From: a bacterium
GTDB lineage: Bacteria > SM23-81 > DAOVCL01
DNA: 64,000 bases
Reading direction: 5' to 3'
Assembly: GCA_029932675.1 (NCBI GenBank)
Contig: JAOZPP010000003.1
Span: 1 to 64,000, forward strand
Position numbers and translations under genes: made by a program. The notes beneath the pieces are model-generated. The model worked only from the letters and a program-made list of their open reading frames with translations, was not told where the DNA came from and made no database searches. Every line of letters starts with the position of its first letter. Positions within the stretch are counted from its first letter, which is position 1. Positions 2,685 through 15,832 of the stretch are shown here, piece by piece.

Positions 2685-5600
2685 ATGGGACGGTTGGCAA
2701 ATTTCAAAAGTTTGGTCTTGCCCGTTATCCTCTTGGGGCTGGTTTGGGCCTCAGGTGTTTTGGGGCAGACCTTAAATGGATTCCCCAAGATTGCCTTCAA
2801 CGACCCATATTGGTTTCAGAAGGCGTTGGAATGGAAGGGGTTTGAGTCCCCCGGTTCCGTCCATTTTGAGCATTATTGGGGGCAGTTGGATAGCTGCGGG
2901 TTCAATCTGGTTAAGACCTATGGGGACAGCGTTAGCCTGCTCAATCCTCCGGGTCTCAAGCTGCTCAATGCCAACCTGAGTGAAGCTGCCATAGAAAGTT
3001 GCTCCTGGTATGGAGGCCATACGGTGGCCCCTTGGCACTTCGCCGATGGGGAGGGGCTGTCACCTTACCAGGCTTGTAACGATCCTAATCCTGCTTGGTT
3101 CTTCGGGCCGGACCCAGAGAACGGGGAGCGATATAGGATTCCAGGTTCCGATCCACCCCACTATGTCTATCGGGCCCTGGTTGACCAGCACAGTGCGGGA
3201 ACCCTGATCCATGGGTCGTTGCCAAGGCGGCACCAGTTCAGATACAGGCAGTATTATCTTACCTTCCGGCTGAAGATGGTGGGGGATACCCTTGAGCACA
3301 TTCCGGTGGCCAGGATTAAGGTCTGGTGCATACCGGAGGATACCTCCAAGGGAGAAGGGGATGCACCGCATAACTTCTCCCCCCTACTGCTTCTTCCTGA
3401 TGCCGATGAGGTGCCAATAGATACCCTGTTCTATACTGTCTACGCAGACGATTTCCACCATCCTGGTTCCTATGAGGACATCACCTTCGGCCCGGACACG
3501 TTGAACAGTGCCGGCTATTACACCACCATCCTTGTCCAGTGGCTGGGCACCAGGGACCTCTACATAGACAATGTGTTCATCCGGGATATCTTTTACTACT
3601 ACGCATGGGAGTATCAGGGTGGAGGCTACTACAGCCAGGAGATCAAGGATGCCCTGCTCGGGGTCCACAACATAAATCCGGCGCTAAACTTCCGCTGGTA
3701 TAAGGATGAGCCGCCACTTTGTATGTTTAGCTGTTACCATTATGTGGACAGCCTGGCCAGCCCGGTGACTGCTCGCCTCAACGGTGCCCTCTGGATTGTC
3801 GAGGAGTTGGATGACTATCGCCAGATAGTTCACCCAAATGAGCTCATCTTTGACAAGTATACCATCTGGGGCCATTCGGATTCCTCGTCGTATGGGGGAG
3901 AGAGCATCCAGATATCCTGGAATTCGCTGACCGGTGGCTTGAGATCGGGTATAAAAACAGCGCAGGGGGATCCGGACAATCCCGCTGATGACATACCCTT
4001 CTGGATGACGGTTCAGGCCTGTGACTACTGGTATGAGGATTATGGGGATACAATGTTCCATAGCCTCAGGAGCCCCACGGCAAACGAGCTCAAGGCGGAA
4101 GTCTGGCTCTCCCTCTGTTATGGGGCCAAGGGGATTATGTATTTTATGTACCCCACTGAGGACTGGTACCCCTACCACTGGCACCGTAAATTCCGTGGTT
4201 TAGTTGATCTTGTTGATGCTGACAGTAATTTCACCTCTGATCCCAAGATCGGCCACTATGTTCCCAACTACAAGTGGTATGTGGTGCGGGATATGAATGC
4301 CGTGCTGGATTCCTTGAACCCGGTTATCCAAGGGCTCACCTGGGTGGATGCGGGTAAGTGGGATGAGATGGGTAGCCTTACGGGGAGCTATATCAACTCT
4401 ATAACCAGCGATAGGTTCCCGCAGGATTCTGTCTGGGTGGAGGTGGGCCTCTTCCACGATAACCTCTATGACTACTTTATGTTAGTCAACCGCCGCTGTC
4501 TCTCCACCGAGACCCAGCAGGTGACCGTGGAGCTCTCCAGGTCCGGCCTCTGGGCGGTAAAAGATATGTATTCCGGGGAGGAGAGTTGGCTGACCAGCAG
4601 TGAGGGGGTAATGAGTTTTACTACCACCTTGGGACCGGGAGAAGGTAAGCTCTTTCGGCTGAGGGAAGGGTTCTCCGGGCCAGTTCTTACCGATCAGACC
4701 TGGGAGGGTTTGATTGGCATCTCTGGGGACATTACAGTTCCGGACAGCGTTACCCTCACCATCAATCCAGGCACAGCCCTCAGGTTCTTCCCCGGAGGTG
4801 ACAACCAGACAGGAGGGGTGGATACAGCAAGGTGTGAACTCATAGTTGAGGGGAGCTTATTGGTGCAGGGGACGGAACCTCAGCCGGTGACCCTCACCTC
4901 GTTTGCCTCCACTCCCGGGGACTGGTGGGGGATAAGGTTTAAGGGGGGATCTTGGGGTCATCTCAGGCATGCGCTGGTTGAATATGGCTACTGTGGAGTT
5001 TTGGCCGACTCCGGCAGCACAGTAACCATAGACAGTTGCACCATCCAGAAGAACGAGGTCTATGGGGTGAGGTGCGACCATGCCGGTGGGGCTACTACCA
5101 TCTCCGGCAACAGGATTTGGAACAACGGAGTTTACGGGGTATGGACTGAGCACTGCTCACCTGATATCCTGGATAATTTGATCAACGGCAGCAGGTATGG
5201 GATAAAGGCAAGCTATGCCGGCTCTGATATGCTGATTAAGGGGAACAGCATAGACAATGCCTCCATCCAACCAAAGGATCAGCCCCCTTATGACAACTAT
5301 GTGGGGATCAGCCTGCAGAACTCTTCCCCCCTCATCTTGGATAACGAGATTGGGGGTGGGAAAGGGCTCTCTGGCCTCTCCTGTTCCTCTGGTTCCAATC
5401 CAGAGGTGAGAAGCTGCATAATAGATGCTCGGTGCAAGAAGGGCATCTCCTGCTATGATGGCTCCAGCCCTACGGTAGACTCCACTCAGGTTCACTCCTA
5501 CACAGAGAGGGGCATCTACTGTTATCAGTCCAGCTACCCGCGGTTAGGGGACACAGGGATAGAGGGCAGTGGAGGCAACAGCATCTCCAGCCGGGATGGT

Positions 5601-6119
5601 GGCTATGAGGTCTGGTGTGAGGAGAACCTCCAGCCGGTGATGGCGGAGTCCTGCTGGTGGGGGATGGCCATTCCCGATCCCTCCCGTTTCCATGGTGCTG
5701 TTGACTGGTTGCCCTGCTTAGACCACGACCCATTTGGGGAGGTAGGGGTAGAGGATGGTCCAAAGGAGGGGCTACCCACCAGGTTTACCCTTTTCCAGAA
5801 CTATCCCAACCCGTTTAACCCCACTACCCTTATTCGTTACTCGTTGCCCGTAGCTCGTCAAGGGCGGTCAGGGGAAGGGGGTTCACGAGCACGCACTACG
5901 AGCACGAGCTACGTTAGTCTAAAGGTTTACAACATCTTGGGGCAGGAGGTGAGGACTTTGGTGGATGAACCACAGGCTCCTGGCTATTACCAGGTGAGGT
6001 GGGATGGGAGGGACAACCTAGGCAGGGAAGTCTCCAGCGGGATATACTTCTACAGGTTACAGGTGTTAGGTGATAGGTTAAAGATGGTAAAGACCAGGAA
6101 GATGGTGCTGATCAGGTAA
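2685..6119 (+). CDS. Large secreted protein: glycosidase-like N-terminal region, right-handed beta-helix, sorting domain
   Basis: ATG 2685 follows AAGGAGG at ideal spacing. 1144 residues. Residues 1-27 are a signal peptide (hydrophobic core LVLPVILLGLVWASGVLG). Residues ~30-660 look like a TIM-barrel glycosidase-type region: aromatic-rich, with RWYKDEPP and LCYGAKGIMYFMYP segments resembling those in uncharacterised glycoside-hydrolase-like proteins, but I cannot name a family or catalytic pair. Residues ~700-1010 are parallel beta-helix (PbH1) repeats, e.g. repeated SxPxILDN and CSYDGSSPTVDS-like turns. The last ~90 residues are a sorting domain (QNYPNPFNPTT, WDGRD, SSGIYFYRL). A surface carbohydrate-active or adhesive role is inference. 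The sorting domain carries the in-frame CGT-repeat insertion (5833-5916). Confidence 0.85.
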   Translation: MGRLANFKSLVLPVILLGLVWASGVLGQTLNGFPKIAFNDPYWFQKALEWKGFESPGSVHFEHYWGQLDSCGFNLVKTYGDSVSLLNPPGLKLLNANLSEAAIESCSWYGGHTVAPWHFADGEGLSPYQACNDPNPAWFFGPDPENGERYRIPGSDPPHYVYRALVDQHSAGTLIHGSLPRRHQFRYRQYYLTFRLKMVGDTLEHIPVARIKVWCIPEDTSKGEGDAPHNFSPLLLLPDADEVPIDTLFYTVYADDFHHPGSYEDITFGPDTLNSAGYYTTILVQWLGTRDLYIDNVFIRDIFYYYAWEYQGGGYYSQEIKDALLGVHNINPALNFRWYKDEPPLCMFSCYHYVDSLASPVTARLNGALWIVEELDDYRQIVHPNELIFDKYTIWGHSDSSSYGGESIQISWNSLTGGLRSGIKTAQGDPDNPADDIPFWMTVQACDYWYEDYGDTMFHSLRSPTANELKAEVWLSLCYGAKGIMYFMYPTEDWYPYHWHRKFRGLVDLVDADSNFTSDPKIGHYVPNYKWYVVRDMNAVLDSLNPVIQGLTWVDAGKWDEMGSLTGSYINSITSDRFPQDSVWVEVGLFHDNLYDYFMLVNRRCLSTETQQVTVELSRSGLWAVKDMYSGEESWLTSSEGVMSFTTTLGPGEGKLFRLREGFSGPVLTDQTWEGLIGISGDITVPDSVTLTINPGTALRFFPGGDNQTGGVDTARCELIVEGSLLVQGTEPQPVTLTSFASTPGDWWGIRFKGGSWGHLRHALVEYGYCGVLADSGSTVTIDSCTIQKNEVYGVRCDHAGGATTISGNRIWNNGVYGVWTEHCSPDILDNLINGSRYGIKASYAGSDMLIKGNSIDNASIQPKDQPPYDNYVGISLQNSSPLILDNEIGGGKGLSGLSCSSGSNPEVRSCIIDARCKKGISCYDGSSPTVDSTQVHSYTERGIYCYQSSYPRLGDTGIEGSGGNSISSRDGGYEVWCEENLQPVMAESCWWGMAIPDPSRFHGAVDWLPCLDHDPFGEVGVEDGPKEGLPTRFTLFQNYPNPFNPTTLIRYSLPVARQGRSGEGGSRARTTSTSYVSLKVYNILGQEVRTLVDEPQAPGYYQVRWDGRDNLGREVSSGIYFYRLQVLGDRLKMVKTRKMVLIR

Positions 6120-6759: not shown

Positions 6760-6773
6760 ACCTCTGAACCAGG

Positions 6774-6799
6774 GCCGCCGAGAGAGGAACCTCGGCGGC
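6774..6799 (+). terminator. Rho-independent-like terminator after the DNRLRE gene
   Basis: GCCGCCGAG (6774-6782) pairs perfectly with CTCGGCGGC (6791-6799) around an 8-nt loop, 14 nt after the stop codon, followed by TCTTCCCTTT. It separates the secreted-protein cluster from the ATPase/helicase operon. Confidence 0.75.
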
Positions 6800-6976
6800 T
6801 CTTCCCTTTAAAACCATTTCACCAGGGGATTACCAGGGACCCAAAGTGGAGCCCCTTCCCTACTTACCCATAAAGATAAGTGAAATGACTTGCTTTGTCA
6901 AGAGGGAGGCGAATATGGGGTTCTGTAACTCCCTTTATTAATAGATAGATCGGACTCTTAAGGTGTTTAACCTTCC

Positions 6977-7053: not shown

Positions 7054-7068
7054 AGCAAATAATTTGCT
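7054..7068. promoter_or_regulatory. 15-bp palindrome, operator candidate for the ATPase/helicase operon
   Basis: AGCAAAT-A-ATTTGCT is a perfect inverted repeat with 7-bp arms. Its right edge touches the -35 element at 7068, a position where a bound dimer would block RNA polymerase. No regulator gene is adjacent, so the protein that would bind is unknown. Confidence 0.5.
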
Positions 7069-7095
7069 TGATTTTAGAGGAATAAAGGCTATAAT
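7068..7095 (+). promoter_or_regulatory. Sigma70-type promoter of the ATPase/helicase operon
   Basis: TTGATT (7068-7073), a 16-nt spacer, then a consensus TATAAT (7090-7095). The next credible start codons are 23-43 nt downstream. It is the best promoter in the 370-nt gap before the operon. Confidence 0.65.
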
Positions 7096-7117
7096 TATAA
7101 AAAGGGAGGGGATCTAA

Positions 7118-7141
7118 ATGTCAGAAGGATGGGAAGTATGA
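7118..7141 (+). CDS. Seven-codon leader ORF overlapping the next start codon
   Basis: The strongest ribosome site of the operon (AGGGAGGGG, 7103-7111) lies 6 nt before ATG 7118, not before the long gene. This ATG opens a short frame MSEGWEV whose TGA stop (7139-7141) overlaps the ATG at 7138 as ATGA. That is a classic arrangement for translational coupling. It could also be chance, with ribosomes using 7129 or 7138 directly. Confidence 0.4.
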   Translation: MSEGWEV

Positions 7142-7944
7142 AAGAGCTGCGGGAGGGGCTCTTGAGGGTTCAGCGGAGAGCCAAGGAGTTGGCTGGGCTT
7201 TTAGCTGGGTACGGGAGGATGGATGAAAACCCAACCTCCAACCCCTTTGTTATGGAGGCACTTCTCCTGAAGATGGAGAAATTAAAGGCCGGATTAGAGC
7301 TTGGCCAACTTAGTTCTGGTTTGGGCCGTTGGATGGAGCTACAAAGACCTAAGTTGAAGCGGTGGAAAGAGGAGTTTAAATCGGATTTCGGCCGTAGGCT
7401 GGAGAAGGAGCTTCAAACCAAGGGGTTTAAGTTAAGGGGCCAATATCCAAATCTTTACGCTGGCCTCTACTCCCTAAGGGTCAACTTCCTGCAGGGGGAG
7501 ATTGCCATCTTCTGGGGGCCAGAGTCGGTGAAGAAGGTGGGGCTTGACCCGGAGGAAGTAAGGGATTGTATCCTGAAGTTTGAGCAGGAGTTGAAGGGGG
7601 ATGGTTTCGATGCGGATTCCTATCTCGCCCAGCTCAAGGAGGCCTATCGCAGGGCACTCGGCCGGGAGGTGGGGGAGAAGGCTCCAATTGTCAAAGTTTT
7701 GGGGGAGCTTGCCTTTCTCAGACAGGGGGAGAAATTTCGGATAAATCCCACTAAATCCAATTACACCGGTTACGGAAGGGCACAATTTGGGTATGACCTC
7801 TACCGCTTGAGGAAGTCAAAGAGGGATGAGTTATCCCTCTGGGTGGCCACTTTTGAGGCGACAAAGAGGAAGGACAGGGTCATCTTCGTCCCCGATGATG
7901 AGGAGAGGGGGACAAGATATGCCTATCTCTCCGTTAGGGGGTGA
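7138..7944 (+). CDS. Unrecognised protein, first gene of BREX-like ATPase/helicase operon
   Basis: 268 residues from ATG 7138 (GAAGGA at 7125-7130 as ribosome site; ATG 7129 is an in-frame alternative giving 271). I do not recognise a family. The N-terminal ~110 residues are rich in Lys, Glu and Leu and look helical, probably with a coiled coil (KELREGLLRVQRRAKELAG and the MEKLKAGLEL region). Residues ~125-150 (LYSLRVNFLQGEIAIFWGPE) and the C-terminal ~60 (FGYDLYRLRKSKRDELSLW, then VIFVPDDEERG) look like beta-sheet. No signal peptide, membrane helix, nuclease or HTH motif is visible. It ends 4 nt before the first ATPase, so it is almost surely co-expressed with it. A DNA-recognition or scaffold subunit is a guess from position only. 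Confidence 0.8.
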   Translation: MKELREGLLRVQRRAKELAGLLAGYGRMDENPTSNPFVMEALLLKMEKLKAGLELGQLSSGLGRWMELQRPKLKRWKEEFKSDFGRRLEKELQTKGFKLRGQYPNLYAGLYSLRVNFLQGEIAIFWGPESVKKVGLDPEEVRDCILKFEQELKGDGFDADSYLAQLKEAYRRALGREVGEKAPIVKVLGELAFLRQGEKFRINPTKSNYTGYGRAQFGYDLYRLRKSKRDELSLWVATFEATKRKDRVIFVPDDEERGTRYAYLSVRG

Positions 7945-7948
7945 GCCA

Positions 7949-9226
7949 ATGAAATCAGGATTGGCTAAAGCGATAATCAACAGGTTGGGGGGGACGGGGA
8001 CCCCCCCTGAATTTGGGATAGAACACTTTACTGTGGGACTGGACCCCTGGTTGGGGATAATAGATGAGGAGTATTTGGATAGCTTTATCAAGTTAGGGGG
8101 CTCAGCCTTCAAATTGGTGATCGGCAACTATGGAGGGGGAAAGACCCATTTCCTTTATCGGATAAGGGATGTTGCCTGGGCAAGGGGGTATGCGGTGAGC
8201 TATGTAGCCCTCTCCCCAGTTGAGTGCCCATTCAACAAATTAGAGCTTGTCTATAAGGCAACAGTGGCTAACCTAATGCATCCGATGAAGGGTGAGGAGC
8301 AGATAAAACCCTGGGAGAGGGGGATCGATGGTTTCCTCCGCAACTGGTATATGGAGAAGGTAGAGGAGTTTGGGGAAAAGGGAGGGGAGTTCCTTACCTC
8401 CTATGTCCGCTCTATAGCGGGGATAGAGTCCTCAAGCTTTACCAACGCGGTGAGGGAGGCCTTTCTCTCCCTTCAAACGGGGGGGGAGGACTATGAGCGC
8501 ATCCTCCAATGGTTAAAAGGGGAGGAGATCGATCGTGTTATTCGCAATAAGTATGGGATTACTGAGAGGGTGGACAAGACAACAGCCTTCCGCCACCTTA
8601 GATCTTTAGCCCAATGGATCAAGGCCATAGGCTATGCCGGCCTCGTTCTCCTCTTTGACGAGGCTGAAAGGGGGTTGAGCATCGCCTCTTCTCGGGAGAG
8701 GAGGGTGGCTATGGACAACCTCAGACAACTGATAGATGAGTGTGGAAACAGCAGGCTCCCCGGGGTGATGATCTTTTACGCCATACCAGATGAAAGGCAA
8801 CTGTTGGAGGAGAGGTTGGAGGTCTATGAGGCTTTGCGTCAGAGGCTCTCCGGAGTGCTCACTGGAGTCAATCCCAGTGGGGTGAGGATAAACCTTGAGG
8901 AGTTGGGGAAGGAACCGGTGGAGTTTCTCCAGGAATTGGGGGAGAAACTTTCCACTATTTATCAAGATGCCTATCCTCCCTTTAGCTTTCCTCAGGAGAG
9001 CTTGAGGGAGGCCATCACCTACCTTGCTCAAGCGGCTTATGAAGAAAGGTATGCCGATGTGGGGCATCGTCGGGTATTTGTAAAGGGAATAATTCAGGCC
9101 TTCCACCGGTTGAGGAACCAACCTACTGAACCCATCGGAAGGGATATGGCCAGAAGGATCATCCGTGACCAATTGATGGCCTTAGAGATGGAGTTCCAGG
9201 AGGAAGCTGATCAGCAGGAGTATTAG
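7949..9226 (+). CDS. BrxC/BrxD-like P-loop ATPase (ATPase 1)
   Basis: ATG 7949 is taken because AGGGGGTG precedes it, 4 nt after the previous stop; the frame upstream overlaps the preceding gene. 425 residues. Walker A GNYGGGKT at residues 59-66, Walker B LVLLFDEAE at 232-240. The opening (INRLGGTGTPP, FTVGLDPWL) and the GxYGxGKTHFL pattern fit the DUF2791/BrxD-like family. In BREX phage-defence systems of some types these ATPases work with a BrxHI helicase (family knowledge). Length agrees with BrxD (~430). Second gene of the operon, directly followed by a second ATPase of similar design. Without PglX/PglZ nearby, assignment to BREX proper is not supported. Confidence 0.8.
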   Translation: MKSGLAKAIINRLGGTGTPPEFGIEHFTVGLDPWLGIIDEEYLDSFIKLGGSAFKLVIGNYGGGKTHFLYRIRDVAWARGYAVSYVALSPVECPFNKLELVYKATVANLMHPMKGEEQIKPWERGIDGFLRNWYMEKVEEFGEKGGEFLTSYVRSIAGIESSSFTNAVREAFLSLQTGGEDYERILQWLKGEEIDRVIRNKYGITERVDKTTAFRHLRSLAQWIKAIGYAGLVLLFDEAERGLSIASSRERRVAMDNLRQLIDECGNSRLPGVMIFYAIPDERQLLEERLEVYEALRQRLSGVLTGVNPSGVRINLEELGKEPVEFLQELGEKLSTIYQDAYPPFSFPQESLREAITYLAQAAYEERYADVGHRRVFVKGIIQAFHRLRNQPTEPIGRDMARRIIRDQLMALEMEFQEEADQQEY

Positions 9227-10579
9227 ATGATTGGGGCCATGGTCTACCATCAGGGGTTAGGGAAAGGGCGGGTGGTAGATACAAGATGGAGGGGAATGCA
9301 TCTTTTAGTGGAGTTTGAGAATGGCCTTTCCCTTTGGGTTAACCGTGAGGTGTTGAAGCTGCTTACTCCGGTTAAGGAGAAACCCCGTCCTCAACCCAAG
9401 CTGAGACATACTCCTACCAAAGGGGGGGATTTCCAATCCCGCAGGATGATCGAGGCCTTCAGATTAGGCGTAGTTCCCTCCTTTGCCATTAACGACTTCA
9501 CCTTTGGTCGGAAGAAGGAATTAGAGGAGATCGAACGAACATTTGAGAGTTTCCCTCGCAAAGGAGGAGAGGTTTTAGCCATAGAAGGGGAGTATGGATC
9601 TGGGAAGACTCACCTCTTGGATTATATATTTACCTGGGCCCTGGGTCAGGGATATGCCGTTGGTCGGGCGGAGCTTGATCGCTTTGATGTTACCCCCTAT
9701 CGACCAAAGCATATCTATCGGGAGCTGATGAGAACTTTGAGATTCACCTTATGGAACAAGGAACTTAGCTTTCCAGAGATATTGAGGGAAGCCAAGGAGG
9801 TCAACCTCCCCACTTCCCATCTTTACCTCTCCAAGGCCCTTTGGCTCCTCTCTCAGGACGAGGACCCACCAGCCCTCTGGAGTTGGATAGGAGGGGAGGA
9901 AGTAGGCAGGGAATACTTGGACTACCTAAAATATTGGAAGTTGCCTGTGCTCTTGGATCACACCCCGGCAGTGGATGTTTACTGCTATCTCCTTAGTGGT
10001 TTGGGATATTTGATCAAAGCCTTAGGGGGGAAGGGATTGGTGTTGATCATCGATGAGGCTGAGACCCTATTCCACCTCTGGTGGACCCCTTATCAGAGGA
10101 TTGGCCTTTACCTTTTCAAGGGGCTGGTAGGCACGGCCCTCAACCTTCCCCAGCTTACTCAGGTGGAGAAGGGGAAAAGACAGAGGGATGTGAGCTTAAG
10201 CGTTGGTTGGGTCGATAGTCAGGGATACATTCACTCTGGCATCCGCCCTCTTCCTTACCTTTATCACCCCCCCTCTCATATATTTCTCATCCTTGCCCTT
10301 ACCCCTTCAGGCTCTTCTTATTATGAAGAGCTGCGAGCGATTATTCCTCCCCAGAGGCTCCTCTCCCTTTCCCCCCTCTCCAGTTCTGACTATTTCCAAA
10401 TGGCGGAGAGGCTTATCGAGCTTTATAGTCATGCCTTTCCCTCATTCCAACCAGGGGGGGAAGTAAAGTCCATCTTAACCAGAAATTTGAGGGAGAAGAG
10501 GGTGAGGATGTTTATCAGAGAGGCGGTAGAGAGGATGGACCATATCCGCTACTACCAATATGAATCCCCAGGAAGCTGA
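9227..10579 (+). CDS. BrxC/BrxD-like P-loop ATPase with N-terminal Tudor-like domain (ATPase 2)
   Basis: The ATG at 9227 follows the previous stop without a gap. 450 residues. Residues 1-48 (GAMVYHQGLGKGRVV, LLVEFENGLSLWV) resemble the SH3/Tudor-like fold found at the C-terminus of UvrD/PcrA helicases; I infer a nucleic-acid or polymerase-binding add-on. Residues ~70-450 are the ATPase: FAINDFTFGRKKELEEI, Walker A GEYGSGKT (121-128), Walker B LVLIIDE (271-277), then a long alpha/beta C-terminal half. It is a diverged relative of ATPase 1, so the pair may form a hetero-oligomer. Its last 20 nt overlap the helicase gene. Confidence 0.78.
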   Translation: MIGAMVYHQGLGKGRVVDTRWRGMHLLVEFENGLSLWVNREVLKLLTPVKEKPRPQPKLRHTPTKGGDFQSRRMIEAFRLGVVPSFAINDFTFGRKKELEEIERTFESFPRKGGEVLAIEGEYGSGKTHLLDYIFTWALGQGYAVGRAELDRFDVTPYRPKHIYRELMRTLRFTLWNKELSFPEILREAKEVNLPTSHLYLSKALWLLSQDEDPPALWSWIGGEEVGREYLDYLKYWKLPVLLDHTPAVDVYCYLLSGLGYLIKALGGKGLVLIIDEAETLFHLWWTPYQRIGLYLFKGLVGTALNLPQLTQVEKGKRQRDVSLSVGWVDSQGYIHSGIRPLPYLYHPPSHIFLILALTPSGSSYYEELRAIIPPQRLLSLSPLSSSDYFQMAERLIELYSHAFPSFQPGGEVKSILTRNLREKRVRMFIREAVERMDHIRYYQYESPGS

Positions 10580-12548
10580 TATTGAGATCAGAAAACGGTT
10601 GGCCAATTCTTGGAGGGCCTTCTTCTCTCCATTTCCTCATCTCTTGCCCATTCAAAGGTTAACTATTCCCAAGGTTTTGCAGGGCCGAAATTTGGTGATC
10701 TCCTCTCCCGCAGCAACTGGGAAGACAGAGGCCGTGATGGGCCCATTGGCCGAGCTTCTCATCAGGGAGGGGTGGAGGGGTTTAAGTATCCTCTATGTCT
10801 CCCCCACAAGGGCATTGGTCAACGATCTCTATAAGAGATTAAAAGGCCCCCTGGAGGGGTTAAGAATTGGCCTAGCCAGAAAGACTATGGATCATCGGGA
10901 ATTTAACCCCCAAAACCCGGCCTCTGTCTTAGTTACTACCCCAGAGTCCTTCGACTCCCTTATCTGTCGGGCTCCCCAGGTCTTTGAGTCCATAAAGGCT
11001 GTTTGTCTGGATGAGATTCATCTCTTGGATGGAACCTATCGAGGCGATCAGTTGCGGGTTCTCCTTCAGAGGTTAAGGCTTTTGAGGAGGGAGCCTATTC
11101 GGTTTTACGCCCTTTCGGCAACGATATCTGATCCCATTTCCCTGGGAGAGAGGTATTTCTTCCCTTTTGAGGTTGTTCAAGCCAAAGGGAGGCGAAGGAT
11201 CTACCATACCCTCCTTCCCTTTGATGATAAGTTAGAGGAGCTTATCAACCGGTTTCGTATCCAGAAAATCAAGAAGGCGCTTTTCTTCTGCAATACAAGG
11301 AAGGAGGTAGAGAGAGTAGCCCTCCTCTTAAAGAGGGCCTGGGAATATCCAGAGAGGGTCTGGGTGCACCATGCCAGCCTCAGCAGGAGAGAGAGGGAGG
11401 TGGTGGAGAGGGAGATGAATCGGGAGAAGGTGGGGATTTGTGTGGCTACGATGACCCTTGAGCTGGGGGTAGATATAGGTGATATCGAAGCAGTTGTGCT
11501 TGTCTCCCCACCCCCTTCGATGAATGCCCTTTTGCAAAGATTAGGAAGGGGAAATAGGAGGAGTGGCGGGTTGATTGCTTACGGCCTGTACAGAAATGGG
11601 TGGGAAGAGACCATCTTTGATCTTCTCTTCGAACTTGCCAAAATAGGGTGGATGGAGGAGGAAGAGCCTCCCCTTCACCTCTCGGTTGTAGTTCAACAGA
11701 TGCTCTCCTACCTCTACCAGAAGAGGAGGATCGGAGCCACAGCGGAGGCCATTCAGAGGGTTCTAATCCCCTTAGGTTTAGAGCTTACCGATGTCCTGGA
11801 ACTTCTTCTCCACCTGGAGAGGATTGGGTTTGTTCAATCACAGGGTGGGGGAGTATATTGGCTTGGTCCCAAGGCAGAGGCTATGGCCGAGAGGGGGTTC
11901 ATCCATTCTAATATACCTAAGAGCAGGGGAAGCTATCAGGTCTTTGACCTTACATCTGGAAGGCAGATTGGTACCATTGAGACGGTTAGCCCCCAGTTTG
12001 TCCTCCAGGGTAGGGGGTGGGGGGTGGAGAGGAAAGATGGGGTGAAGTTATTCGTCCGTCCTTTGGGCCATAGAAACGAGATGGTAAGGGGGGTATTCTG
12101 TGGAGGGGGGGGGAGGGTTTGGGGGCACAGCTTAGGGGCGAGGCTGAAGAGAAAAGTCTTTGTCGGGGCAAAAGAGGACGATCTCCCCTTCTGTTCGGCC
12201 CTTGGGGTAACCAAGGTCTATCATTTCTTGGGGCCTATTTGGGGGGAGCTTTGGGCCCAGTACATCAGCTTGATTAAGGGGATAAATGCGGTGGATCAAG
12301 GAGGGGTAATGATGAGCATTGAGGGGGACCCTCAATTAGAGGACCTCCTCTGGCTTTCTGACGAAGGGGTGACAGAGGTACTGGAGGGGATGAGGGGGAT
12401 ATTGCTCGATCAGCTCAACTTAGGTCTATTCTTCCGTTATCTTCCCCCTCACTTCCAAGATAAGGCTCTGAGGGAGGCCCTGGGAATTGAGCAGATGGTT
12501 GATTATCTGGAAGGGTTCAATCCCCTTCTAATAGAAGAATGTCCTTGA
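10560..12548 (+). CDS. Lhr/BrxHI-like superfamily 2 DEAD/H-box helicase
   Basis: 662 residues. RecA domain 1: Walker A AATGKT (51-56), SPTRA motif Ia (81-85), TTPES (126-130), DEIH box (151-154), SAT (186-188). RecA domain 2: LFFCNTRKEVE, HHASLSR, ATMTLELGVDIGDIE, and arginine-finger motif QRLGRGNRR (326-334). The rest (~345-662) should hold the winged-helix and C-terminal region usual in Lhr-type enzymes. The nearest known partner relation is BrxHI, an Lhr-like helicase encoded beside brxD in several BREX types. It overlaps ATPase 2 by 20 nt, so expression is coupled. Last gene of the operon. No nuclease motif is visible, so DNA translocation or remodelling is the safest prediction. Confidence 0.88.
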   Translation: MNPQEADIEIRKRLANSWRAFFSPFPHLLPIQRLTIPKVLQGRNLVISSPAATGKTEAVMGPLAELLIREGWRGLSILYVSPTRALVNDLYKRLKGPLEGLRIGLARKTMDHREFNPQNPASVLVTTPESFDSLICRAPQVFESIKAVCLDEIHLLDGTYRGDQLRVLLQRLRLLRREPIRFYALSATISDPISLGERYFFPFEVVQAKGRRRIYHTLLPFDDKLEELINRFRIQKIKKALFFCNTRKEVERVALLLKRAWEYPERVWVHHASLSRREREVVEREMNREKVGICVATMTLELGVDIGDIEAVVLVSPPPSMNALLQRLGRGNRRSGGLIAYGLYRNGWEETIFDLLFELAKIGWMEEEEPPLHLSVVVQQMLSYLYQKRRIGATAEAIQRVLIPLGLELTDVLELLLHLERIGFVQSQGGGVYWLGPKAEAMAERGFIHSNIPKSRGSYQVFDLTSGRQIGTIETVSPQFVLQGRGWGVERKDGVKLFVRPLGHRNEMVRGVFCGGGGRVWGHSLGARLKRKVFVGAKEDDLPFCSALGVTKVYHFLGPIWGELWAQYISLIKGINAVDQGGVMMSIEGDPQLEDLLWLSDEGVTEVLEGMRGILLDQLNLGLFFRYLPPHFQDKALREALGIEQMVDYLEGFNPLLIEECP

Positions 12549-12574
12549 CAGGGAGGGTAAAATTTCATTATAAT
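12545..12574 (+). promoter_or_regulatory. Near-consensus sigma70 promoter overlapping the helicase stop
   Basis: TTGACA (12545-12550), an 18-nt spacer and TATAAT (12569-12574). The TGA stop of the helicase lies inside the -35 hexamer. The next real gene is hicB at 12840, so it probably drives hicBA through a ~260-nt leader filled with dispersed repeats. The leader could also be a small RNA. Confidence 0.7.
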
Positions 12575-12647
12575 AGAGGCAACTGCTACAACATATGGGG
12601 GAGGCATCTCCCGATGCCGATCAATAATGTGCTGTTAGGAGTTACCT

Positions 12648-12720
12648 CTTCCGCCAGGAATCCCGTCGGAACGGGGCTGACAGCTCCTATCCGAGCCGTC
12701 AGAACCCCCGATTCTGACGG
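12648..12720. repeat. Dispersed composite repeat with GTCAGAA hairpin
   Basis: 12648-12683 matches 387-422 with a single difference seen. It is followed by a 9-bp hairpin, CCGTCAGAA (12696-12704) with TTCTGACGG (12712-12720). Lies in the leader between the promoter at 12545 and hicB. Confidence 0.75.
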
Positions 12721-12749
12721 GAAAAAGGGAAGGGTAGTAGAAGGCAAGG

Positions 12750-12779
12750 AACCGCAGATTAACGCAGAGTTACGCGGAT
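12750..12779. repeat. Dispersed CGCAGA-type repeat
   Basis: AACCGCAGATTAACGCAGAG followed by TTACGCGGAT; same family as 2411-2441 and 18281-18300. Confidence 0.6.
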
Positions 12780-12839
12780 ATGTGGTGGTAGGGTTCTGTC
12801 CTGACGGACTTGGAAATTAACAATTAAAGAGGGGTTACG

Positions 12840-13064
12840 ATGTTGGTAAAAATGGAAGCTTACTTTGATGGGGAATATTGGTGTGCAAGAGGGATTGGGG
12901 AGGATATTTTCACTCAAGGGGAAAGCCTTGACGAACTGGTGGAGAATATAAAGGAGGCTGTTTCTCTTCACTTTGAGGAGGAACTTGATAAAGGTAGCTT
13001 GCTCAACATTTTAATCTTGTCCGAGACGGAGGTAAGAGGTGTCGCCAAAGTCGCCACAGGTTAG
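12840..13064 (+). CDS. hicB: HicB-like antitoxin (short form)
   Basis: 74 residues from ATG 12840 with AGAGGGG upstream. The pattern YFDGEYWCARGIGEDIFTQGESLDELVENIKEAVSLH matches the HicB/UPF0150 fold (partial RNase H-like): an acidic, strand-rich start and the GESLDELxxNIKEA helix. At this length it lacks the C-terminal ribbon-helix-helix or HTH domain that lets full-length HicB (~135 residues) repress its own promoter. It overlaps the toxin gene by 26 nt. The antitoxin-first order is common for the short HicB/YcfA-type pairs. Predicted to bind and neutralise HicA. Confidence 0.88.
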   Translation: MLVKMEAYFDGEYWCARGIGEDIFTQGESLDELVENIKEAVSLHFEEELDKGSLLNILILSETEVRGVAKVATG

Positions 13065-13290
13065 TGGAAAAAACCTGGTAAGGCTTTTGGAAAATATGGG
13101 CTATGTGGTTATTAGGCAAAAAGGAAGTCACATACGTCTCAGGAAAAAGACAAGAGCAGGTGAACACAATATAACAGTTCCAGCACATAAGATCATTGCA
13201 AAGGGCACACTGAACGACATCATATCGAAGGTCAGTCTATGGAATGGCGTTTCTAAAGAGAGCCTTTTCGAGAAATTAAAGAAAGGATGA
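13039..13290 (+). CDS. hicA: HicA-like mRNA interferase toxin
   Basis: 83 residues from GTG 13039; GGAGGT sits 5 nt before it. HicA/YcfA family: a double-stranded-RNA-binding-like fold with LVRLLENMGYVVIRQKGSHIRLRKK, where the His of GSH is the expected catalytic residue, then NITVPAHKIIAKGTLNDIISK. It cleaves mRNA independently of the ribosome when HicB is lost (family knowledge). Translation is coupled to hicB by the overlap. Its place beside the BREX-like operon fits a defence-island neighbourhood. Confidence 0.9.
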   Translation: MSPKSPQVSGKNLVRLLENMGYVVIRQKGSHIRLRKKTRAGEHNITVPAHKIIAKGTLNDIISKVSLWNGVSKESLFEKLKKG

Positions 13291-13590
13291 ACTCTTTGGA
13301 ACCTTCAAAATCCTTATCTGCCAGATGGGCGAGCGGTCAGGTCCCCTGATCTGACCGTGTAGGTGGCATCCTCGGCCGAGCCGTCAGAACCCAGATTCTG
13401 ACGCCAAGGTGACGGAAGAAGGCTTCTGCCACCTCAAGGGAGGAAATTGGGGCGGATGAAAAAATAGGAAGTGTCCCTATTTTCCCTCCTATTTTCCCTA
13501 TTTTCCCTAGGGCAAGAACCCGAGGCATAGAAGAACCTTGACCTCTGTTAGGATGAAGGGAGGAAGCAAATCTTAGGGGGGGTGACAAGT
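13291..13590. repeat. Repeat-filled spacer: GTCAG hairpins and CCTATTTTCC tandem
   Basis: CGGTCAG (13334-13340) pairs with CTGACCG (13351-13357). CGTCAGAA (13382-13389) pairs with TTCTGACG (13396-13403). Around 13465-13510 there is an AATAGG...CCTATT inverted repeat followed by three near-tandem copies of CCTATTTTCC. No gene seen. Confidence 0.7.
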
Positions 13591-15162
13591 ATGTGGGTAA
13601 GGGTGAAGATTTTAATTGAGGCCTCTTTCTTGGTTCTGATAGTAGGGGTAGTTGTCTTAGGTCAGGTGGCTGAACTCCCCGTGAGGAGGGAATGGGGCAT
13701 AAGGATGAGCGAATCGGTCCGGAGGATTGAGATGGCAGATATCGATGGGGACGGGATTGATGAGATCCTTGTTGGCACCGGCAATGACTCCGGTTTTGTC
13801 TATGTCCTTAATGGGATCAACCACGAGACGGAGTGGAAAAGCCCAGGATTGATGGGAAGGGTTCTCTCCATTGGGGTAGGGGATGCAGACGGCGATGGCA
13901 CGAAGGAAATCATCGTTGGGACAGGGCAGGGTGTAAGCGATAGTGGAAATGTATATGTTTTCGACGGAGTAAGTCACGCATTGAAGTGGCACAGGGGTGG
14001 ATTAGATGAACAGGTCTATAGTGTCGCAATTGGCGATTATGATAAGGATAATAGCATAGAGATATTACTGGGAACTTATTGGAATTATCATTGGTTAGCA
14101 GAATACCTGTTTCTGCATAGGGGAGGGCATCTATTTGCTTTCGACGGTCGAACCCACCACCAAGAACTTTCTGTCTCACCAAATGTTGTAAAGAGAATGA
14201 AAATTTTGGATGTTAACGGAGATTTGATTGATGAAGTGGTCACCGGCGAGAGTTATTTAGTGATAATTGACGAACCGCATTCCCATTATATAGAAAGTCA
14301 AGTCAGTGTCTCAACAAGAAGAGATTCCATTGAGTTGGCAAGTAGAGATTTATTCTTCTACGGATTTACTCCATACCAAGAACCTATCCCCCATTTTTTA
14401 GAGATGGCTGTTGGCGATTGTGACAGCCAACTTGGCAAGGAAGTTATTTGCAGCTATGTAATCTACCGGTGGCCTTATTATAATGAACAGATAGAAGGTT
14501 TGAAAGTGCTGGATGGGGCTTCTCTCAATCTAAAATGGAGTAGAGTTGATACCGCAGGTCCACCAAATTCATATCCAAACCCCATAAATGGCTTAGCGGT
14601 TGATGACTTGAACGGAGATGGCATAAATGATATAGTTGCGGCTTATTCAGAGGGGTGGATTAGGGTGATTGATGGGGTCACTTCAGCGGACTCAGCGATT
14701 AGTCGGCAGTTGATTCCAATCTCCCATTTTGCTTACGGGGATGTGGATGAAGATGAGGAGTCTGAGGCCTGTATCAGTGATGGGGATAGTTTAATCTTAT
14801 TGGAAGTGCACCCATTTACCGCGGTTAGGGACAAGCATCAAAACCCTTCCAGCATCCCTATAGATCTTGAGCTCTCCCAGAACTGGCCCAATCCATTCAA
14901 CTCAACTACAGCTATCAATTATCAGTTGTCAGCGGTAAGTGATCAGCGGTCAGCAGTCAGCTTAAAGATCTACAACATCTTGGGGCAGGTGGTAAGGAAG
15001 CTGGTGAATGAGGAGCAGGTTCCAGGCTACTACTCGGTCCGCTGGGATGGGAAGGACAGCGGAGGCAACCCAGTGGCCAGTGGGGTATACTTTTGTAGGT
15101 TGCAGGTGTTAGGTGATAGGTTAAAGGTAGTAAAGACGAGGAAAATGATCTTGTTGAGATAG
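13591..15162 (+). CDS. Secreted FG-GAP propeller protein with sorting domain
   Basis: ATG 13591 follows AGGGGGGGTG at good spacing (GTG 13582 sits inside that site). 523 residues: signal peptide (ILIEASFLVLIVGVVVLGQ); FG-GAP-like repeats such as ADIDGDGIDEILVGT, GDADGDGTKEIIVGT, GDYDKDNSIEILLGT and DDLNGDGINDIVAAY; then a sorting domain (SQNWPNPFNST, LKIYNILGQVV, WDGKD, ASGVYFCRL). A repeat of TCAGTTGTCAGCGGT type encodes the linker INYQLSAVSDQRSAVS (14907-14960), and a GGTGTTAGGTGATAGG repeat encodes the last hairpin (15096-15128). The middle third is clearly AT-richer than both ends, as if the propeller had a different history from the signal and sorting modules. Confidence 0.88.
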   Translation: MWVRVKILIEASFLVLIVGVVVLGQVAELPVRREWGIRMSESVRRIEMADIDGDGIDEILVGTGNDSGFVYVLNGINHETEWKSPGLMGRVLSIGVGDADGDGTKEIIVGTGQGVSDSGNVYVFDGVSHALKWHRGGLDEQVYSVAIGDYDKDNSIEILLGTYWNYHWLAEYLFLHRGGHLFAFDGRTHHQELSVSPNVVKRMKILDVNGDLIDEVVTGESYLVIIDEPHSHYIESQVSVSTRRDSIELASRDLFFYGFTPYQEPIPHFLEMAVGDCDSQLGKEVICSYVIYRWPYYNEQIEGLKVLDGASLNLKWSRVDTAGPPNSYPNPINGLAVDDLNGDGINDIVAAYSEGWIRVIDGVTSADSAISRQLIPISHFAYGDVDEDEESEACISDGDSLILLEVHPFTAVRDKHQNPSSIPIDLELSQNWPNPFNSTTAINYQLSAVSDQRSAVSLKIYNILGQVVRKLVNEEQVPGYYSVRWDGKDSGGNPVASGVYFCRLQVLGDRLKVVKTRKMILLR

Positions 15163-15373
15163 AACATGGAGGCGAGAGACGAAAGTAGCAGATGAGGAGA
15201 TGGAAGGGGGAAATGGCGAAGTCCGAAAACCGAGAAATATAGGGCTGAAAGCCGGAACGAAAGGCGAAAAGCGGAAATTGAGAAGATAGAAAGCGGCAAA
15301 TGCCAAATATCGACGGCCGATGGCTAACAACCGACCCCCGTAAACTGACCTTAACAGAGCAAAGGAGGAATTT
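15163..15373. other. Purine-rich spacer with degenerate short repeats
   Basis: Runs of degenerate units such as CCGAAAACCGAG, GAAAGCCGGAA and GAAAGGCGAAAAG. No CIRCE element (TTAGCACTC/GAGTGCTAA) was found ahead of the heat-shock genes, and no convincing promoter. Confidence 0.5.
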
Positions 15374-15832
15374 ATGGCTTTAGTGGAAGCGAAGAGAGAG
15401 GGTGACCTGATGGCGGACTCCCGCCATCTGCAGGAGGAGATGGATCTCCTCTTCAGCCATTTCTTCGAGCTAAGGTACCCACCGATGTTGATCTCCGAGA
15501 GACTATGGAGACCACCGATGGATGTCTATGAGACAGATAGTGAAATTCTCATCGTTATAGAAATAGCTGGCATGAGGAATGAGGACTTCAACATCACCGT
15601 TAAGGACGAGGTCCTAACCATCCAAGGGCATAGGCTAATGAAAGAGGAGCAACGGAAGGCCTATTATAGGAATATGGAGATCAACTTTGGCCCCTTTGAA
15701 AGGAATGTCTACCTTCCTGAATCGGCCAATACCAATGACATCTCGGCTACCTATCGTGATGGTTTTTTGGTAATCAAGGTAGGAAAGGGACCGAGAGAAC
15801 TTCCCCAGGAGTTAACAATCAAGATAGAATAG
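15374..15832 (+). CDS. Small heat-shock protein, Hsp20/alpha-crystallin family
   Basis: ATG 15374 follows AAAGGAGGAA. 152 residues. The alpha-crystallin domain spans ~45-145: PPMDVYETDSEILIVIEIAGM, EDFNITVKDEVLTIQGHR, FGPFERNVYLPE and YRDGFLVIKVGK. The C-terminal tail ends ELTIKIE; it has no clear IxI. ATP-independent holdase that keeps unfolding proteins soluble in the cytoplasm. The lon gene begins 10 nt later, a pairing that makes sense as a proteostasis operon (hold, then degrade). Confidence 0.95.
   Translation: MALVEAKREGDLMADSRHLQEEMDLLFSHFFELRYPPMLISERLWRPPMDVYETDSEILIVIEIAGMRNEDFNITVKDEVLTIQGHRLMKEEQRKAYYRNMEINFGPFERNVYLPESANTNDISATYRDGFLVIKVGKGPRELPQELTIKIE

Follow-up and report, generated by a model that had tools for sequence, protein, structure and literature searches.

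A tight four-gene operon at positions 7138-12548 of the window, that is, of the stretch comprising bases 1-64000 of an 84-kb contig in a 3.03-Mb assembly, encodes a first protein here called P1, two ATPases and an SF2 helicase, and the question it raises is whether such a set of genes is the remnant of a BREX system, an accidental arrangement, or a system in its own right. The original prediction favored a minimal system built from a BrxD-BrxHI pair and possibly undescribed. We compared the operon with its relatives in other genomes and with the known systems that it resembles.

Gene organization and protein families

The four genes are linked as had been claimed, with a 4-nt gap, a 0-nt gap and a 20-nt overlap at the given coordinates (Table 1), and the motifs read earlier were all found in the sequence, namely Walker A GNYGGGKT and GEYGSGKT and Walker B DEAE and DEAET in the two ATPases, and DEIH, SAT and QRLGRGNRR in the helicase. 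The claims about the regulatory signals stood in part. A sigma70-like match lies ahead of P1, in a scan which gave 7 matches in comparison to 4.8 expected and in which several matches arise by chance; the terminator in front is visible as a strong hairpin, but the terminator scan gives only a weak one. For P1, the ATG at 7138 is the more likely start, because AGAAGG lies 9 nt upstream of it and the homologues begin with MKE.

Table 1. Positions of the operon and of adjoining features in the window
Feature	Position	Strand	Basis or remark
Secreted-looking protein	2685-6119		
Strong hairpin	about 6770-6805		visible in sequence
Weak terminator	6917		terminator scan
Sigma70-like promoter, TTGATT-16-TATAAT	7068-7095	+	consensus scan, 10 of 12
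P1, unnamed family, about 268 aa, N-terminal coiled coil	7138-7944 (alternative start 7129)	+	family searches, homologue comparison
ATPase1, BrxC/BrxD-type (PF10923) AAA+ ATPase, 425 aa	7949-9226	+	Walker A and B intact
ATPase2, second BrxC/BrxD-type ATPase, 450 aa	9227-10579	+	own clade
PcrA/UvrD-type Tudor domain, ATPase2 N-terminus	9227-9376	+	profile matches to PDB, PF21196
SF2 helicase, BrxHI/SngC/Lhr type, 662 aa	10560-12548	+	
Perfect sigma70 consensus, TTGACA-18-TATAAT	12545-12574		at helicase stop codon
HicB	12840-13064		position, size
HicA	13039-13290		Pfam
Secreted-looking protein	13582-15162		

Both ATPases belong to PF10923 (BrxC_BrxD), with 165 bits (E=3e-48) for ATPase1 and 82 bits (E=5e-23) for ATPase2 against a gathering cut-off of 22.2 bits, and their intact Walker motifs are kept in relatives. 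Their scores with the NCBIfam BREX_BrxD model, 138 and 73 bits, respectively, lie below its cut-off of 350 bits, and in PADLOC the SngB model scores lower than BrxD on both. A tree built from 50 ATPases groups every ATPase2 in a single clade (100/97), with ATPase1 on the other side, together with BrxD and SngB. The top PADLOC matches of the helicase were BrxHI (4e-73, the higher score) and SngC (4e-67), and 13 module helicases are split from BrxHI and SngC by a branch with 100/100 support.

The Tudor-like domain that had been noticed on one of the ATPases was recovered by a profile of nine ATPase2 N-termini, which matches UvrD/PcrA Tudor chains in the PDB with E=2e-4, and by Pfam PF21196 in five of the nine. 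In the main clade, it is the first 50 residues of ATPase2 that give this match; most other clades are without the domain. As described in two papers (PMC8318588, PMC5397179), PcrA/UvrD binds RNA polymerase through its Tudor domain and acts to suppress R-loops; there the domain belongs to an SF1 helicase, whereas here it sits on an ORC/Cdc6-like ATPase.

The first gene, reported as unrecognised, encodes a protein that falls into none of the Pfam, PADLOC or NCBIfam families. Its N-terminus is predicted to be helical or coiled coil, the PDB sequences gave coiled-coil matches only, and Pfam matched nothing besides the coiled coil in P1 and its homologues; a weak NCBIfam match to PglW (E=0.01) was rejected, since it spans the coiled coil. 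An AlphaFold2 model built on an alignment of two sequences had a pLDDT of 46, so that the fold was not predicted. Across 20 P1 sequences there is one near-invariant acidic position (19 of 20), and neither a conserved set of catalytic residues nor conserved basic residues. We thus rejected P1 as an enzyme, and, the catalytic residues not being conserved, regard it as probably an adaptor or sensor. The same residues bear on the idea of an abortive-infection device in which P1 would be a toxin released once the ATPases sense phage. Being the sole part with no known enzymatic role, P1 would be the component to which such an effect could be ascribed, but a protein that looks structural and conserves a single acidic residue makes this the least probable of the readings considered here.

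Occurrence and variation of the module

A search for the gene neighborhood across genomes, suggested along with the original prediction, found the order P1-ATPase1-ATPase2 in 19 other loci, as far as the contigs extend, and because this order is identical the operon in the window is not a product of chance. With the window included, ATPase1 directly follows P1 in all 20 loci and a second ATPase, separate or fused, is present in 19, the twentieth (L066) being cut by the contig end; in L065 (9392-11698) and L068 (1669-3966, minus strand) the two ATPases are fused head to tail into proteins of 765-768 aa. The P1 profile search of 386 genomes returned 14 matches, and in 13 cases the two ATPases follow downstream; further searches added module loci in G222, G027, G304 and G388. 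P1-like matches with E of about 1e-4 in G211 and G188 were left out of the locus count, and a similar one in G094 was not counted, as the region read there (L038) contains no ATPase. In total, of the roughly 390 bacterial genomes that were sampled, about 4% carry the module, and these come from distant lineages. It was not found among viral contigs searched with ATPase1 and three P1 queries, or among phage records searched with two P1 queries.

All four genes occur in order in a genome of the same genus (labelled Candidatus Zixiibacteriota) and in one from another phylum, and the genome under study has a further copy on contig C59, with an identical gene order and a helicase truncated where the contig stops; this copy has diverged, the identities to the four proteins of the window being 36, 49, 33 and 51%. 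The four proteins co-diverge, with pairwise distance correlations of r=0.86-0.93, reached by none of 2000 permutations, to which the shared descent of the host genomes contributes. The patchy distribution suggests that the four genes are transferred jointly, and carriage on plasmids (pDESTI.01 of Desulfomonile tiedjei DSM 6799, genes DESTI_RS28080-28095, and plasmid3 of Aulosira laxa NIES-50, genes NIES50_70940-70970), as well as the two diverged copies in one genome, fits horizontal transfer. We conclude that the module is real and old and that it occurs widely.

The gene that follows the two ATPases is exchangeable, and can be (i) a BrxHI-like helicase, as in 13 loci; (ii) a giant fusion of a BrxHI-like helicase, a PD-(D/E)XK-like stretch and an SF1 helicase, as in L034 (5966-10696) and L035 (3-5486, minus strand), where the nuclease-like part was recognized by reading the motifs G[VI]PDLI...EV.DIKD and cysteines and the PDB search gave no match; (iii) an SNF2 helicase, as in L065 and L068, that of L065 being closest to ZorD/DpdE; or (iv) an N6/N4 DNA methylase, which in L036 (7443-9368) comes with a small protein of no assigned family directly after the core. 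In the genes adjoining L031, L037 and L067 no recognisable effector was found. The essential core of the module is P1 with the two ATPases.

Just upstream of the relative in L028, a co-oriented protein of 1820 aa (10134-15596, minus strand) has long helical stretches and P-loop-like motifs (GRQLGKSA), and searches of Pfam, PADLOC and PDB gave no match to it.

Genomic neighborhood

The module lies close to defense genes in several genomes. On the Aulosira plasmid it follows, at a distance of 172 nt, a complete BREX type 6 operon (brxE-A-B-C-pglX-pglZ-brxD-brxHI) which has its own BrxD-BrxHI, AbiEi/AbiEii are near the module in Desulfomonile and L065, an AbiEii homologue is present in L033, and some neighbors elsewhere are PARIS-like. 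The number of PADLOC families matched was 134 in 101 flanking proteins (including AbiEi, AbiEii and AriA) in comparison to 17, mostly housekeeping look-alikes, in 92 control proteins that come for the most part from these genomes, which is suggestive only, given that the loci are few, overlapping PADLOC AbiE models inflate the family counts and the control regions are arbitrary.

The absence of BREX partners that had been noted was confirmed for PglX and PglZ in the window flanks as read, and genome-wide PglZ occurs on other contigs only and the PglX-like match is weak. The operon could still be an accessory of BREX that stands alone, with a BrxD-BrxHI pair that arose by duplication and works only with BREX in trans, as the BrxD/BrxHI similarity of its proteins, the Aulosira arrangement and a PglZ-BrxL-like cluster on contig C21 of the same genome as the window would allow. 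We consider this improbable, for BREX neighbors are absent at the loci examined other than Aulosira, the Aulosira module adjoins a BrxD-BrxHI pair belonging to BREX itself, P1 is always present, and the module proteins form their own clades. The operon is neither a BREX remnant nor an accident.

That C21 cluster, BREX-like and not linked to the module, lies at 366-7582 of C21:29000-42000 (L094) and comprises a DNA methylase-like protein (785 aa), a probable wHTH protein of 250 aa, a PglZ (888 aa) with 27 kb or more of contig on either side, and a BrxL-like protein of 482 aa.

In the window itself, the locus is outside any defense island, surrounded by genes for secreted proteins and housekeeping functions, and has only hicBA beside it. 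This agrees with a housekeeping or stress function in DNA repair or transcription conflicts, in which the RNA polymerase-binding type of Tudor domain would tie the ATPase pair to the polymerase while the helicase, of an Lhr type that has repair roles too, would resolve host R-loops or stalled forks. Such a role seems rather unlikely to us, considering that the module is distributed patchily, travels on plasmids and is co-located with BREX and AbiE, and that the Tudor domain is confined largely to the main clade.

Relation to known systems

By sequence comparison, the module is related to the ATPase-helicase family of Shango and BREX. The nearest described system in composition is Shango (SngA-SngB-SngC), to which the original prediction pointed only vaguely, as a Ter-linked module; it protects against phages, and its operon opens with a TerB-type protein and has a single ATPase (PMC10250203). 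Shango and the module both have a BrxC/BrxD-family ATPase and a BrxHI-related helicase in an operon with a first protein, and neither has a methylase or PglZ. The module could therefore be regarded as a diverged Shango, with P1 an unrecognisable SngA, as the same gene order and the matches of the SngB and SngC models would have it. This is very improbable, in that SngA carries TerB_N, TerB and TerB_C and P1 has none of them, the profile comparison of P1 with SngA gave a probability of 0.2%, and true SngA proteins do give TerB matches in the searches that P1 fails; moreover, the module has two ATPases instead of one and a Tudor domain on ATPase2 which is specific to it, and SngB and SngC fall on branches separate from ATPase2 and the module helicases in both trees.

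With BREX types 2 and 6 the module shares a BrxD-type ATPase adjoining a BrxHI-type helicase, but it lacks PglX, PglZ and BrxC and has a second ATPase and P1, and in Aulosira it coexists with a complete type 6 system. The BrxD-BrxHI part of the original prediction was right as to the protein types, but the operon is not a minimal BREX. An extensive BREX survey of 2026 (PMC12839542) proposes BrxD as an ORC/Cdc6-type loader of BrxHI and makes no mention of TerB, and the BREX-Related types and the capture system in the parts consulted differ from the module in gene content. The helicases of Dpd (DpdJ), Druantia (DruE) and Zorya (ZorD) are related SF2 helicases, and the SNF2 helicases of two module relatives resemble ZorD/DpdE, but the module has no Dpd base-modification genes and no Druantia or Zorya partners. 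No description of the module was found in the open-access literature, subscription papers and preprints being mostly outside the search, and its novelty, raised as a possibility at the outset, is thus provisional.

Proposed function

The reading that we prefer, with a probability of roughly 0.55, is that of a stand-alone modular DNA-processing system which is related to Shango and the BrxD-BrxHI dyad and most likely acts against phages or plasmids. Judged from the protein families, the two ORC/Cdc6-like ATPases would assemble into a hetero-oligomer in which the coiled-coil P1 serves as adaptor or sensor; once recruited to invading DNA, a step in which the Tudor domain of ATPase2 may take part in the main clade, the complex would load the Lhr/BrxHI-type helicase, which may unwind or strip the DNA so that its replication is blocked or it is exposed to nucleases, some relatives building the nuclease into the helicase. 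An anti-phage role is likely because the helicase has its top matches in a clade (BrxHI, SngC, DruE and DpdJ) defined by anti-phage functions (PMC12278908), because Shango is the nearest system in composition, and because of the BREX type 6 and AbiE neighbors; the fusions to a nuclease-like stretch and SF1 helicase in two relatives, and the DNA methylase in another, also argue for the preferred reading, as do the constant gene order, the co-divergence of the proteins, the loader role proposed for BrxD, the PADLOC matches in the flanks and the signs of horizontal transfer. Counting against it are the position of the window locus outside a defense island, a flank enrichment based on few loci and overstated by overlapping models, the low-confidence fold of P1, and the absence of a nuclease from the window version.

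A broader proposal, which we put forward tentatively and hold to be somewhat short of an even chance, is a widespread and previously undescribed prokaryotic immune system, in which the new P1 family and two obligately paired ORC/Cdc6-type ATPases would serve as a universal loader for plug-in effectors, be it an Lhr-type helicase, a helicase-nuclease fusion, an SNF2 helicase or a DNA methylase, with one branch tethered by its Tudor domain to RNA polymerase and attacking transcribed invader DNA.

We know of no established role for BrxD and its relatives within BREX and Shango. The module isolates paired BrxD-type ATPases from the rest of BREX, always with P1 and a swappable helicase, and being compact it makes the helicase-loader idea directly testable; P1 is an added protein family to look for in defense islands, and ATPases of a probable immune function would be linked to a domain of the type that binds RNA polymerase.

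Surroundings of the operon in the window

As read from their sequences, the genes around the operon in the window comprise hicBA and genes for secreted proteins, for a Lon protease and for a small protein of the heat-shock type. A perfect sigma70 consensus at the helicase stop codon lies ahead of hicB and hicA, and the secreted-looking proteins that flank the module on both sides share a similar sorting-type C-terminal tail (NYPNPFNPTT and NWPNPFNSTT).
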